The position numbers and the translations under genes are program-made. From the NCBI GenBank assembly GCA_004356775.1, contig SMXG01000025.1, positions 1 to 59,367 on the forward strand: DNA of 59,367 bases, read 5' to 3'. Below the pieces are notes generated by a model that had not been told where the DNA came from, searched no databases, and worked only from the letters and a program-made list of their open reading frames with translations. This document shows positions 4,356 through 38,195 of the stretch, piece after piece; within the stretch, counting starts at the first letter, position 1, and every line of letters begins with the position of its first letter. The stretch comes from Betaproteobacteria bacterium (GTDB lineage: Bacteria > Pseudomonadota > Gammaproteobacteria > Burkholderiales > Nitrosomonadaceae).

Positions 4356-4492
4356 GAAAATTTCAAGAAAAAAAATGAGGCTGATCACGGATTGGTGCCA
4401 CTTGGCACCTACCGATAAAGTCCATCTGAGCTACAGATTAGTCTCAGTACTTGTTGAAGGTAAGCAGTTCCAAGCCGAATCCACTGCGTAGA

Positions 4493-4522
4493 GAATAGGG
4501 AATCTTGGAATAGGGAATCTTG
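4493..4522. repeat. Two exact tandem copies of a 15-bp unit
   Basis: GAATAGGGAATCTTG occurs at 4493-4507 and again, identically, at 4508-4522, in the gap between fumC and the next minus-strand gene. The unit itself has a near-heptameric inner rhythm (GAATAGG / GAATCTT). A weak TTG-started reading frame (4431-4676, minus) runs across it and would encode PRFPIPRFPIL; I do not accept that frame as a gene. Confidence 0.85.
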
Positions 4523-4672
4523 GTTCATAGTTTGCCAAGAAACCATTCTGATATCTTCCAGTTTTTGCCATTGTAGCTTTTGTCAGCAGATCTGGTTCTG
4601 GGTTTACATTCAAGATTCTTTCAAAAGTACGTTGTACTTCAAGCAAATTGTGCCGGACCAATAATAATTTAA

Positions 4673-26211: not shown

Positions 26212-27932
26212 CTCACAATCCAATACCTTATATTGTTTTGCCCGCATGGCGTTCACGCATACTAGGTGTGTTTCTATTGCTGAGTTTTCTCGGATTGGTA
26301 GTACGCGCTATCTACTTACAGGGAATGCACAGTGATTTTCTGCAGCAGAAAGGTGAGTTGCGTTATAGCCGTGTGATTGAGATAAGTGCGCATCGCGGAA
26401 TGATCACGGACCGTCATGGTGAGCCTCTTGCAATCAGTACACCGGTTGAATCGGTGTGGGCGAGTCCGCGTGACATGGATGCAACGCCTGTGCAATTAAA
26501 GAAATTGGCAAATTTGATCGGGATGGATGTCGTAGAAGTTCGCAAACGTATCAGTAATCAACAGCGCGATTTTGTTTATCTGAGGCGTCATTTGCCACCG
26601 GATATAACGGCTAAAGTGGTCGAACTCGATATTCCAGGTATATATCTTAAGCGTGAATTTCGTCGATATTATCCGACAGGTGAGTTAACGGCTCACATGC
26701 TTGGTTTTACCGATATAGACGACAATGGGCAAGAAGGAATCGAATTAGGGTGGCAGGACACTTTGGCTGGCAAGTCTGGCAGTCGTCGTGTCATCAAAGA
26801 CCGCAAGGGACGTATTGTTGAGGATGTCGAAAGTATCCTTGAACCTAAGCCAGGGCAGGACATAGCTTTATCCATTGATAGCAAAATCCAGTATCTTGCT
26901 TATCGAGAATTGAAGCGGGCTATGGAAATTCATAAAGCTAAGGCTGGCGAAATAGTGGTTTTGGATACGCAGACGGGAGAAGTTCTGGCATTAGCCAACC
27001 TGCCAACATACAACCCCAACAACCGGATAAAAACAAACAGTGGAAGAGCTCGTAATCGGGTTTTAACCGACGTATTTGAGCCTGGTTCGACTCTGAAGCC
27101 GTTCACAATAGCGTCTGCACTGGAAGCAGGTGGGATCAAGCCTGATACGATCTTTCAGACTGCGCCTGGAACTCTGACTATTGGTAAGGCAACGATAAGT
27201 GACTCACATAGAGAAGGTTTTCTGACAGTAGCACAGGTAATTCAAAAATCCAGCAATGTTGGTGCTGCGAAAATTGCCTTGACACTACAGCCACAAACGC
27301 TATGGGAAACTTTCAGTCGCTCCGGTTTCGGCGCATCTACTGGCTCTGGATTTCCTGGAGAAGTTAATGGAAAGCTTCGTCCGTATCAAACTTGGCGTCC
27401 TATTGAGCAAGCCACCATGTCATTTGGCTATGGTATTTCAGTGAATCTACTCCAGCTTGCACGTGCTTACACTCTATTTTCCGAAGAGGGTAAATTGAAA
27501 CCAGTGTCTCTGCTAAAGGTCAATAAACCTGTGGTAGGTGTACAAGTGATTTCACGTGATACCGCTCTTGCTGTGAGCAAAATGTTGGAGATGGTGGTGC
27601 GGCCCGGTGGAACTGCACCGCTCGCACAAATTAGCGGTTATCGGGTGGCAGGTAAGACTGGCACTTCACACAAGATAAAAGGTAACGGTTATGCAAAAGA
27701 CAAATACATAGCTACATTTGTAGGCTACGCACCAGTTTCTAAACCGCGTCTAATCATTGCAGTGATGCTAGATGAACCTTCGGCCGGACAATATTTCGGT
27801 GGTACGGTAGCGGCGCCTGTTTTTAGTCAGGTTATGGCCGGTGCTTTAAGAATTTTGAATGTACCTCATGACGCACCCATTGACAACTTAGTCTTGTCTC
27901 CAGCGGCACTCAAGTTAAAAGGTGATGTATGA
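26208..27932 (+). CDS. ftsI: Penicillin-binding protein 3 (division transpeptidase FtsI)
   Basis: Septal DD-transpeptidase anchored by an N-terminal membrane helix (about residues 16-36). The 574-residue protein has the dimerisation domain with RGMITDRHGEPLA and the transpeptidase motifs: the nucleophile Ser294 in GSTLKPF (SxxK), SSN at 348-350, and KTGT at 483-486. All three are intact. It starts within the ftsL stop (ATGA) and itself overlaps murE by ATGA, so the three are translationally coupled. Confidence 0.96.
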   Translation: MTHNPIPYIVLPAWRSRILGVFLLLSFLGLVVRAIYLQGMHSDFLQQKGELRYSRVIEISAHRGMITDRHGEPLAISTPVESVWASPRDMDATPVQLKKLANLIGMDVVEVRKRISNQQRDFVYLRRHLPPDITAKVVELDIPGIYLKREFRRYYPTGELTAHMLGFTDIDDNGQEGIELGWQDTLAGKSGSRRVIKDRKGRIVEDVESILEPKPGQDIALSIDSKIQYLAYRELKRAMEIHKAKAGEIVVLDTQTGEVLALANLPTYNPNNRIKTNSGRARNRVLTDVFEPGSTLKPFTIASALEAGGIKPDTIFQTAPGTLTIGKATISDSHREGFLTVAQVIQKSSNVGAAKIALTLQPQTLWETFSRSGFGASTGSGFPGEVNGKLRPYQTWRPIEQATMSFGYGISVNLLQLARAYTLFSEEGKLKPVSLLKVNKPVVGVQVISRDTALAVSKMLEMVVRPGGTAPLAQISGYRVAGKTGTSHKIKGNGYAKDKYIATFVGYAPVSKPRLIIAVMLDEPSAGQYFGGTVAAPVFSQVMAGALRILNVPHDAPIDNLVLSPAALKLKGDV

Positions 27933-29485
27933 GTTCGGAGTTTAAAGAAAGATCAGGAGTACATTTTGATTCACGTTTACTAAATGGTTTGGGTGTCAGC
28001 ATAGACAATCTTGTTACTGATAGTCGCATGGTGAAACCGGGGGATACATTTCTAGCTTATGTTGGAGAGAAATTCGATGCTCGTAAATTTATTCCACAAG
28101 CTATTGAAGCGGGAGCAAATGCAGTGTTATGGGAGCGTCATGGTTTCGTGTGGGACCCGGAATGGCAAGCACCTAATTTGTCGATATCCAAACTGCGAAC
28201 TAAGGCGGGGGCTATCGCCAGCTACGTATATGGAGATCCATCGAAAAAGTTATGGCTAATTGGTATCACCGGAACCAACGGTAAAACATCGTGCTGCCAA
28301 TGGATAGCTCAGGCTATGACAGCTCTAGGTAAAAAAACTGCTGTCATGGGTACATTGGGAGATGGTTTTTCTGGTGCGCTTCAGCCTGCTGTTAACACAA
28401 CGCCGGGTGCAGTTTTGTTGCAACAAAAAATGGCCGATTTCTTGAAACGTGGCGCCGAGTATGTGGTGATGGAAGTGTCATCTCATGGGATTGAGCAAGG
28501 GAGGGTTAATGGCTCTACATTCGCAGTAGCGTTATTTACTAATTTGTCACATGATCATCTCGACTACCACGGCAGCATGAAGGCATATGCTGCCTCCAAA
28601 GCGCAATTATTTCAATGGATGGGGCTCAAATATGCAGTACTAAACTTTGACGATGAATTTGGTGTTGAATTGTTGGGGCAGATTTCAGGCAAGATTACGC
28701 AGGTTATTGGGTATGGATTTAAAGAATCGGAAATAAAAAATTTGGATCCGGAAAAAATCAGGGTGGTATGTGGGCGTAATCTTAAAGTGAGCATTCAAGG
28801 CTTAGAATTCGACGTCGAATTCGAAACCGAACGTGTAAAATTTAAAACTGAATTAATAGGCAGATTCAATGCTTCCAATTTGTTGGCAGTGCTGGCTACC
28901 TTGTTGGCCAGTGGTATCAAACTAGCTGATGCGATGCAATCCTTGCAGCAAGTGCAACCAGTAGTAGGTAGGATGGAGAGACTGGGTGGCGGCAACCTAC
29001 CATTAGTAGTCGTAGATTTCGCCCATACCCCGGATGCTCTAGAAAAGATGTTAATAGCGCTTCGCGAGATTCTCCTTAGTTCCGAAGCTACCTCAAAGCT
29101 CAAAACTCAAAACTCAAGATTAATTTGCGTGTTCGGTTGTGGTGGTGATCGCGACCGTGGTAAACGTGCACTAATGGGCAAAGTAGCGACACTATTGTCG
29201 GATGAAGTCATTATCACTAGCGACAATCCACGTGGCGAAGACCCTTATGCCATCATCAATGAAATCGCATCAGGTGCAGGTGCCAACCATCATATCGAGG
29301 AAAACCGAGCAGCGGCGATTTATCAAGCGTTAAATGATGCGCGCAAGGGGGATGTGGTGTTGATCGCAGGGAAGGGGCATGAGGTGTATCAGGAAATTGG
29401 TGGGCAAAGGTTTCCGTTTAGCGATGTGAAGGTCGCGCAACAGATACTACTGAATTGGACGGCCAGAGTGCAAGTACGAAGATGA
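27929..29485 (+). CDS. murE: UDP-MurNAc-tripeptide synthetase (meso-diaminopimelate-adding)
   Basis: ATP-dependent ligase that adds meso-diaminopimelate to UDP-MurNAc-dipeptide. The ATP loop GITGTNGKTS lies at about residues 112-121, and the DNPRGE motif that recognises diaminopimelate is present. The 518-residue product is slightly long: a SSEATSKLKTQNSR segment before the conserved CVFGCGGDRDRGKR is encoded by a heptamer repeat at 29093-29120. Both ends overlap the neighbouring genes by ATGA. Confidence 0.96.
   Translation: MSSEFKERSGVHFDSRLLNGLGVSIDNLVTDSRMVKPGDTFLAYVGEKFDARKFIPQAIEAGANAVLWERHGFVWDPEWQAPNLSISKLRTKAGAIASYVYGDPSKKLWLIGITGTNGKTSCCQWIAQAMTALGKKTAVMGTLGDGFSGALQPAVNTTPGAVLLQQKMADFLKRGAEYVVMEVSSHGIEQGRVNGSTFAVALFTNLSHDHLDYHGSMKAYAASKAQLFQWMGLKYAVLNFDDEFGVELLGQISGKITQVIGYGFKESEIKNLDPEKIRVVCGRNLKVSIQGLEFDVEFETERVKFKTELIGRFNASNLLAVLATLLASGIKLADAMQSLQQVQPVVGRMERLGGGNLPLVVVDFAHTPDALEKMLIALREILLSSEATSKLKTQNSRLICVFGCGGDRDRGKRALMGKVATLLSDEVIITSDNPRGEDPYAIINEIASGAGANHHIEENRAAAIYQALNDARKGDVVLIAGKGHEVYQEIGGQRFPFSDVKVAQQILLNWTARVQVRR
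29093..29120 (+). repeat. Four TCA-headed heptamers inside murE
   Basis: TCAAAGC, TCAAAAC, TCAAAAC, TCAAGAT in direct succession. Read in the murE frame they encode SKLKTQNSR, located in a surface loop where MurE proteins vary in length. The same phase and design recur in murF and murB. Confidence 0.85.
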
Positions 29486-30840
29486 TGATGGCGCAGGAAG
29501 TGGCCCGTGTATTACATGCAAAATGGCGCGGCGAAGATGTACTCTTAACTGGTGTAAGTACTGATAGTCGCACGGTGAAACGCGGCGATTTATTTGTTGC
29601 TCTGAGCGGAAAAAATTTTGACGGTCATAAGTTTGTTGACCGGGCAAAGGAAAAAGGTGCCGTGGCGGCAATGGTGAGCCAAGAGTCAGATATCAAAAGT
29701 CAGGATTCAGAAGTTCCTATGATACTGGTGAAGGACACGCGACTAGGATTAGGGCAACTGGCAGCGTACTGGCGAGGGCGTTTTGTTATTCCGTTGGTGG
29801 CGGTGACTGGCAGCAATGGTAAAACCACGGTGAAAGAAATGATTGCATCGATTTTGCAACAGGTAGTTGGTGAGGTTGGCAAGGTATTGGCAACCGTGGG
29901 TAACCTCAATAACGATATCGGTGTGCCACAAACATTGTTGCGATTACGTGAGCGGCATGAATATGCAGTAATCGAAATGGGCATGAATCATTTCGGTGAG
30001 ATCTCTTATTTGACCAGACTGGTAAAGCCAAGTGTGGCGTTGATAACTAATGCAGGTTCGGCACACATTGAGAAGCTTGGTTCGGTGGAAGCAGTAGCTT
30101 GCGCCAAGGGTGAAGTTTTTGAGGGACTAGACAAGCTGGGGGTTGCAGTCATCAACGCTGATGATTCTAATGCGCAGTTATGGCGCAAGCTGGCTGGTAG
30201 CAGGCCAGTAATAGATTTTAGTCTAAGTAAAGGAGCGAAGGTGGAGGGGTGCTATCAGCTAAATCTGGTCGATACCAAGATGAAATTGAAGCTCCCCGAT
30301 GGTGCCGTGGAGGTAAAGTTGAAGGTTCCAGGCGAACATAACGTGCACAATGCTCTTGCAGCGGCGGCGGCGGCAGTAGCTACGGGAATAAGCAAGGAAA
30401 ACATCGCGTCTGGATTGAGCCGATTCAGCGGGGTGAAGGGACGTATGCAGAAAAAGCGGTGTCTGCATGACGCAATGCTAATAGACGATAGTTATAACGC
30501 TAATCCAGAATCAGTACGGGCTGCACTAGCAGTATTAGCTAAATCCCCAGGGGAAAAAATCCTGGTTTTTGGCGACATGGGAGAGCTCGGTGAGAACACA
30601 GTGGATTTTCATAAGCGTGTCGGCGAAGAAGCGCGTCTTATTGGAATAGATAGGTTGTTCGCCTTGGGCGAATTAAGTGCACATTCCGTGATGAAGTTTG
30701 GTAGGGGCGCACAGCATTTTAAGCGTATTGAAGATTTATTGATCGCAGTCGAACCCGTACTTGCGCCCAACGTAACGTTGCTGGTAAAGGGATCTCGTTT
30801 CATGCAAATGGAACGGGTGGTAAAGAATTTTGAATTGTAA
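29482..30840 (+). CDS. murF: UDP-MurNAc-tripeptide:D-Ala-D-Ala ligase
   Basis: Adds the D-Ala-D-Ala dipeptide to complete the UDP-MurNAc-pentapeptide. Mur-ligase motifs are [11 protein letters not shown] (ATP loop), AVIEMGMNHFGEI and DDSYNANP. From the ATG that overlaps the murE stop (ATGA) the protein has 452 residues, the usual size; a TTG at 29455 is unlikely. Near residues 68-80 the segment SQESDIKSQDSEV is encoded by a heptamer repeat. Confidence 0.95.
   Translation: MMMAQEVARVLHAKWRGEDVLLTGVSTDSRTVKRGDLFVALSGKNFDGHKFVDRAKEKGAVAAMVSQESDIKSQDSEVPMILVKDTRLGLGQLAAYWRGRFVIPLVAVTGSNGKTTVKEMIASILQQVVGEVGKVLATVGNLNNDIGVPQTLLRLRERHEYAVIEMGMNHFGEISYLTRLVKPSVALITNAGSAHIEKLGSVEAVACAKGEVFEGLDKLGVAVINADDSNAQLWRKLAGSRPVIDFSLSKGAKVEGCYQLNLVDTKMKLKLPDGAVEVKLKVPGEHNVHNALAAAAAAVATGISKENIASGLSRFSGVKGRMQKKRCLHDAMLIDDSYNANPESVRAALAVLAKSPGEKILVFGDMGELGENTVDFHKRVGEEARLIGIDRLFALGELSAHSVMKFGRGAQHFKRIEDLLIAVEPVLAPNVTLLVKGSRFMQMERVVKNFEL
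29686..29713 (+). repeat. Four TCA-headed heptamers inside murF
   Basis: TCAGATA, TCAAAAG, TCAGGAT, TCAGAAG in direct succession, encoding SDIKSQDSE in the murF frame. The first 13 bases (TCAGATATCAAAA) recur exactly in the murB copy. Confidence 0.85.
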
Positions 30841-37202: not shown

Positions 37203-38195
37203 ATGGATATGTCAGAAATAAATAAATTAACTCATGGCCAGCCACAACTCATCAAGGGCACATTGAAAGGAACTCTTCGTGGTGAGGTACGTGTGAATGA
37301 ATCGATGAAAAAACACACTTCCTGGCGCGCAGGGGGAGAGGTGGAGCGCATTTATATTCCAGCTGATTTAGCTGATCTTTCTCAATTTTTACTTGGCTTA
37401 CCGCAAGGAGAACCGGTGTACATGGTTGGATTAGGTAGCAATCTTCTGGTGCGCGATGGAGGATTACGTGGCACGGTAGTATTGCTGCATGCACAGTTAA
37501 ATGATCTTCGACTAGAGCAACATAGTGAAGTGGACGGATTGATTTATGTCGAGGCGGGCGTAGCTTGCGCAAAGGTTGCACGATTTGCGTCACTACGTGA
37601 TTTGGCAGGAGCGGAATTCTTAGCTGGTATTCCCGGCACAGTCGGTGGAGCACTGGCAATGAACGCAGGTTGTTATGGCACAGAAACGTGGAAGATTGTC
37701 GAGCGAGTACGAACGCTCAATCGCTCAGGTCGTCTATACGATCGGTATTTTAAAGATTACCGGATTAGCTATCGGAACGTGAGCTTAAAGTCAGATATCA
37801 AAAATCAAGTGTCAATGCATTCTTCTAGTGAGGAATGGTTCGTTGGAGTGTGGTTTAGATTGAAGAAAGGCGATGATGCTACATCCAGAAGAAAAATTAA
37901 GGAAATACTGTCTAGGCGTATCAATAGTCAACCATTGAGTTTGCCTAATGCTGGGTCAGTATTTCGTAATCCACCGGGAGATCATGCAGCGCGACTGATT
38001 GAGTTATGTGGGTTGAAGGGTTTTAGCATTGGTGGAGCGATGGTTTCACCAAAACATGCAAATTTTATCGTTAATACCGGGAATGCCATGGCGGCAGATA
38101 TTGAGGCAGTAATTACAGAGGTAAGTAAGACAGTAAAAGAAAAGACCGGTGTTGAATTGGTACAAGAAGTAAGGATTATAGGGGAAGCCAAGTGA
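37203..38195 (+). CDS. murB: UDP-N-acetylenolpyruvoylglucosamine reductase
   Basis: FAD enzyme that reduces enolpyruvyl-UDP-GlcNAc to UDP-MurNAc. The 330-residue protein has NTSWRAGG-like [11 protein letters not shown], the FAD loop [31 protein letters not shown], the YR-type SYRNVSL segment of type I MurB, and the catalytic-serine loop NAGSVFRNP. It starts directly after the murC stop (TAAATG). A heptamer repeat at 37791-37818 inserts SDIKNQVSM after SYRNVSLK. Confidence 0.95.
37791..37818 (+). repeat. Four TCA-headed heptamers inside murB
   Basis: TCAGATA, TCAAAAA, TCAAGTG, TCAATGC in direct succession, encoding SDIKNQVSM in the murB frame. It shares its first 13 bases with the murF copy more than 8 kb away and lies in a loop of variable length. 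Confidence 0.85.

Follow-up and report, generated by a model that had tools for sequence, protein, structure and literature searches.

Three genes of the dcw/mur cluster of a Nitrosomonadaceae bacterium related to ammonia oxidisers, murE, murF and murB, encode essential cell-wall enzymes and each carry an in-frame array of four heptamers headed by TCA, and these three arrays are real and not the product of chance. All three are found at sites of insertion or deletion relative to solved structures, and comparison with related sequences indicates that the loops are permissive and the arrays old, not fresh insertions. They are probably members or remnants of STRR-type arrays that built or extended three permissive Mur loops before the genus diverged. 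The stretch of DNA analysed, termed here the window, comprises 59,367 nucleotides and is contig 81 of a Nitrosomonadaceae MAG of 1.76 Mb (133 contigs, 88% complete); the nearest named relatives of its MurF are also Nitrosomonadaceae. The genes and their arrays are as follows:

27929-29485, plus strand: murE, 518 aa; best PDB match 8f5d (multifunctional fusion protein), E 6e-110, with MurE ligases from 3e-104
29088-29122, plus strand: murE loop array; unit CTCAAAA, 4 units, about 26/28 matching; encodes TSKLKTQNSRL
29485-30840, plus strand: murF; PDB matches are MurF ligases, E 1e-106
29686-29713, plus strand: murF N-domain loop array; TCAGATA-TCAAAAG-TCAGGAT-TCAGAAG, encoding SDIKSQDSE, phase 0
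37203-38195, plus strand: murB, 330 aa; PDB matches are MurB, E 4e-50
37791-37818, plus strand: murB loop array; TCAGATA-TCAAAAA-TCAAGTG-TCAATGC, encoding SDIKNQVSM, phase 0

The arrays and their setting in the genome

The initial annotation had located and translated the four TCA-headed heptamers of murF correctly, and had rightly recognised the same design in murE at 29093 and in murB at 37791. The murF open reading frame, 29455-30840, opens at TTG, and homology points to the ATG at 29485 as the likely start. The murE array, which from 29093 reads TCAAAGC TCAAAAC TCAAAAC TCAAGAT in codon phase 0, precedes the strand leading to CVFGCGGDRD, and that of murB is located between YRNV and EEWF. 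Taken alone, the murE array qualifies as a good tandem repeat (TRF score 45) and the other two do not: in murF and murB degeneracy is strong, conservation is largely confined to TCA, and tandem-repeat scores are poor. The copies have the TCA core in common, murF and murB also share an identical 14 nt, GTCAGATATCAAAA, and the unit of murE is different. The highest TRF score in the window (62) belongs to a short 15-bp repeat, GAATAGGGAATCTTG, with a GGGAATC-like core at 4489-4523.

As 7 equals 1 modulo 3, TCA in any array of period 7 visits all three codon phases, and on the opposite strand three successive TGANNNN units place a stop in any frame. The proposal that keeping one phase avoids stops is therefore wrong by arithmetic, and codon phase as a constraint is excluded because a period of seven covers every phase. 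What counts is the strand (TCA versus TGA), and all three window arrays lie on the coding strand because the TGA strand gives stops in every frame. A shared starting phase (0) in three arrays has a chance of 1/9. The same stop-codon argument for strand was made by MacGregor for TAACTGA (PMC4679880). Beside the window arrays, no TGA arm that would form an inverted-repeat hairpin, as in other families, was noticed by eye.

Only three four-unit TCANNNN runs occur in the 1.76-Mb genome, those of murE, murF and murB, which together span 8.7 kb of the dcw/mur cluster. Ten three-unit runs of mixed sequence lie outside the window, compared with about 17 expected by chance (a rough estimate, 0.017 cubed x 3.5 Mb for both strands), and there is thus no excess. 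These counts were obtained by pattern searches and the lag-7 background from sampled stretches, in which 208 kb of DNA from the same genome gave no lag-7 excess. The initial annotation had attributed to this genome a mobile or expanding heptamer family; the lack of any other four-unit run, of a three-unit excess and of a background lag-7 excess rules out such a genome-wide expansion. Dispersal to many, mainly intergenic, places, which is characteristic of STRR sequences, is thus not seen here; it is found in G101-G105 and, with the unit ACTYMCY, in genomes of the sister genus. With the TCA family otherwise nearly absent from its own genome, the arrays might have arisen locally in some other way. 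Within the sampled DNA, the only TCA-type array-like site noticed beyond the mur genes is a degenerate run, TATCACAGATCACAAATCACGGATA, apparently intergenic and on the minus strand of contig 64 (L163:11293-11321).

One such origin would be copying inside the mur operon, from murF to murB or in the opposite direction, by ectopic gene conversion or template switching, in which case no general heptamer class need be involved. The 14 nt common to murF and murB would fit this explanation, as would the 17 nt, TCAGATATCAAAAATCA, shared by the murF of G003 and the murB of the window, and the confinement of all three arrays to 8.7 kb with none elsewhere in the genome. Local copying is nevertheless unlikely, given that murE has a different unit (CTCAAAA), that the flanks of the arrays differ between genes, that the corresponding loops of the sister genus have period 7 with unrelated units, and that other families possess an array in the MurB loop without one in the MurF loop.

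Significance against chance

When synonymous codons were resampled in 50 kb of window CDS without altering any protein, four-unit period-7 arrays of any of the 64 triplets occurred at a mean of 0.06 per shuffle, against three observed, and the arrays therefore exceed what codon use would generate. The same scan of the real window CDS at periods 4, 5, 8, 10, 11 and 13 returned no arrays. TCA pairs are above synonymous expectation in each gene (murE, P=0.0013; murF and murB, both P=0.0027), and lag-7 identity as a whole is raised under synonymous resampling, with 21 matches against 13.5 expected in murE (P=0.003) and P values of 0.032 and 0.028 in murF and murB, respectively. The window arrays thus consist, as STRR sequences do, of head-to-tail 7-bp units in at least three copies beyond chance.

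If loops are hydrophilic and contain much Ser, Lys, Asn and Gln, TCA might in an AT-leaning genome fall at every seventh nucleotide by chance, with no event at the level of DNA. TCA is indeed common among the serine codons here (184/1015), the murF and murB arrays are weak as tandem repeats, and TCA runs are not in excess elsewhere in the genome. This account is quite improbable, however, when set against the resampling result, for which proteins and codon use were left unchanged, TCA-pair probabilities of 0.001-0.003 per loop, and relatives that are periodic at lag 7, and not at lags 5, 8, 10 or 11, with different units. Pure chance is strongly disfavoured by synonymous resampling, and an assembly artefact is also disfavoured, as the separately assembled genome G003 has the murF array.

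The Mur loops in related bacteria

Alignment with solved structures gives the MurE array as an addition of 9 aa relative to PDB 8f5d, that of MurF as 4 aa relative to 4cvk and that of MurB as 11 aa relative to 1hsk. The MurE loop measures 66 nt in nearly all Nitrosomonadaceae versus 33-36 nt in most outgroups; for MurF, most Nitrosomonadaceae have a loop of 54-57 nt, and the outgroup range is 39-60 nt. The length of the MurB loop varies widely, and relatives differ in it by steps that are not multiples of the heptamer. Among the close relatives examined, in the genus of the window (g1) and its sister genus (g2), the MurE loop does not differ in length and that of MurF differs by at most one codon, and the murF of the sister genome G003 retains the array as TCAGATATCAAAAATCAGGACTCA. 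A shorter empty site, the mark of a recent mobile insertion, was not found for MurE or MurF in g1 or g2, and the MurE and MurF loop lengths in the two genera rule out recent insertion. The view that arrays had entered loops of cell-wall enzymes therefore stands as regards the variable, indel-prone nature of these loops, and fails as regards a recent entry. It had also been argued that an array of 28 bases must be balanced by neighbouring changes, but no separate compensating indel was seen, and the differences from outgroups are of whole codons (in MurE, 66 nt against 33-36).

In 16 dcw loci of the family (194 kb), an unbiased scan yielded 14 lag-7 matches compared with 0-5 at other lags. When further Nitrosomonadaceae loci were included, 14 of 15 lag-7 matches were located in one of three loops (MurE-393, MurF-75 and MurE-271); for two of the 14 the automatic locator left a blank, and they were assigned to MurE-271 from sequence and position. 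Orthologous matches are non-independent, and the statistics for the window lineage rest on 3-4 independent sites. No lag-7 excess was present in 603 kb of other sampled DNA from the same genomes, the background stretches being unmatched for loop content. The mean lag-7 z in the two genera is +2.2 and +2.6 for MurE and +2.0 and +3.4 for MurF, and that of MurB is +1.95 in g1. The units of the MurE loop are CTCAAAA here and CCGAAAC and CCAAAAA in the sister genus, in the same register, and with the protein fixed the MurE excess persists in both genera (P 0.001-0.03 in every g2 species tested). With the same constraint, the MurF signal of the sister genus is weaker (P about 0.01-0.3), and much of it may for this reason be carried by conserved residues; the periodicity of MurB in relatives is also weaker. 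The congener G007 shows little periodicity in these loops. The sister genus has its own dispersed heptamer family, ACTYMCY, distinct from TCANNNN, and long degenerate ACT[CT][AC]C[CT] arrays are seen at L231 and L232 (G014 and G017) and many other places in its genomes.

In a wider set, 98 dcw loci (1.8 Mb) contain 26 clean four-unit arrays of period 7 against none in Markov sequence; in the same loci, periods 8-15 give 0-1 clean arrays each and periods 5 and 6 give 8 and 25 arrays against 3 and 4. The placement of an array in a Mur loop is borne out by five other betaproteobacteria (L099, L105, L106, L114 and L115), whose MurB loop, matching that of the window, contains clean, unambiguous in-frame arrays on the TCA strand, with five different heptamer units in the five species. 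The genomes of these species hold 23-100 four-unit TCANNNN matches, counted in overlapping windows, compared with 0-44 for a backwards-pattern control, and some of the matches are minus/plus pairs, i.e. inverted repeats. In L106 the MurB loop takes in the two arms of an inverted heptamer pair, with TTA in place of the TGA that would be an in-frame stop. Arrays also occur inside a GDP_Man_Dehyd Pfam domain (GDP-mannose-dehydratase-like, L201), inside an Aminotran_1_2 domain (class I/II aminotransferase, L202) and, in L214, between the N- and C-terminal UvrD helicase domains.

Origin of the arrays and known heptamer systems

Under the preferred reading, degenerate STRR-type heptamer arrays, composed here of TCA and four variable bases, would recurrently supply Betaproteobacteria with loop sequence; they would arise, change unit and spread in many betaproteobacterial genomes, and an array within a gene would survive only if the extra residues are tolerated, if the TCA and not the TGA strand is read, and if the net length amounts to whole codons. 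In the lineage of the window, such arrays would have made or lengthened the MurE, MurF and MurB loops prior to divergence of the genus; each loop would then have evolved like ordinary protein sequence, with some re-homogenisation at the DNA level by slippage or conversion, owing to which different units would stand in register at the same place in related genera. Both this engine and the ancestral origin of the arrays are presumptive. The arrays appear to supply loop residues, with nothing to indicate a catalytic, regulatory or cell-wall role. A broader proposal, to be held only tentatively, is that Betaproteobacteria continue, across lineages, to draw new loop sequence for essential enzymes from heptamer arrays, which would re-form at the MurB, MurE and MurF sites with species-specific units, such that turnover of the DNA rewrites the residues while length and register persist.

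Repeats inserted in frame within coding genes are known from Rickettsia, whose palindromic elements (RPE) are palindromes of about 100-150 bp. The window arrays resemble them in that permissive sites of proteins tolerate an in-frame repeat, and differ in being 28-bp heptamer runs without a shared flanking element. Heptamer tandem repeats themselves are already known and are mostly intergenic (PMC4692102, PMC4679880). They include the STRR-type sequences of cyanobacteria and the GGGAATC and GGGGA(C/T)T heptamers of Xanthomonas and Nostoc, of which 7-11% at least partly overlap ORFs in Xanthomonas and more in Nostoc (PMC4692102). The window arrays are similar to these in their 7-bp unit, the number of units (about four), degeneracy at some positions and dispersal as arrays; however, the STRR, Xanthomonas and Nostoc heptamers lie mostly between genes and are rich in G, with the potential to form G-quadruplexes, whereas those of the window have a TCA plus NNNN core and occur inside essential genes only.

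The marine Beggiatoaceae have direct repeats of TAACTGA, the reverse complement of which, TCAGTTA, is itself a TCANNNN heptamer; in ORFs it is read on the TCA strand, the other giving stops in all frames, and its coding occurrences include the end of MurG (PMC4679880). That heptamer is a fixed unit found mostly just upstream of start codons, and its coding copies belong for the most part to the ends of proteins or to hypothetical proteins, whereas the window copies are in internal loops of conserved enzymes (PMC4679880). None of the window arrays contains TCAGTTA and all are internal to genes, which sets them apart from the Beggiatoaceae system. That the heptamers are functional nucleic-acid sites, for RNA binding or translational control, maintained by selection in mur mRNAs is most improbable: direct repeats near Beggiatoaceae start codons have been proposed as post-transcriptional sites (PMC4679880) and the DNA-level periodicity here exceeds the needs of the protein, but the arrays are mid-gene in variable loops, their units are not conserved between genera as a binding site would require, and the congener G007 is without the pattern. 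Phase-variable heptanucleotide tracts, such as that of Haemophilus influenzae hmw1A (PMC8262952), are also tandem repeats whose copy number can change by slippage; the window repeats differ in being degenerate and in essential genes, where a frame-shifting change of copy number would be lethal.

A limited search of the open-access literature found nothing relevant on heptamers in coding regions of Nitrosomonas or Betaproteobacteria, and no account of essential enzymes in which the same internal loops are repeatedly occupied by arrays with changing units. As the arrays can be traced into internal loops of essential enzymes, and into the same loop in different families at a constant position with varying units, it becomes testable both how new loop insertions originate in conserved bacterial enzymes and whether repeat slippage goes on rewriting them, and such loops should not be taken as selected protein features.

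Other sites in these loci also carry heptamers. In four other betaproteobacteria, species-specific units form inverted pairs (hairpins) where murF ends or just past it: TGA- and TCA-headed arrays are paired in L099 (11401-11494), L106 (7125-7234) and L114 (11362-11459), and other heptamers form the pair at the equivalent place in L103 (11373-11461). TCAGGGG arrays are located at the C-terminal end of murG in Thiobacillus-group loci (L113:16157-16195, L125:14601-14634 and L128:16469-16507), and the C-terminus of MurG is also the site of a heptamer array in Beggiatoaceae (PMC4679880).
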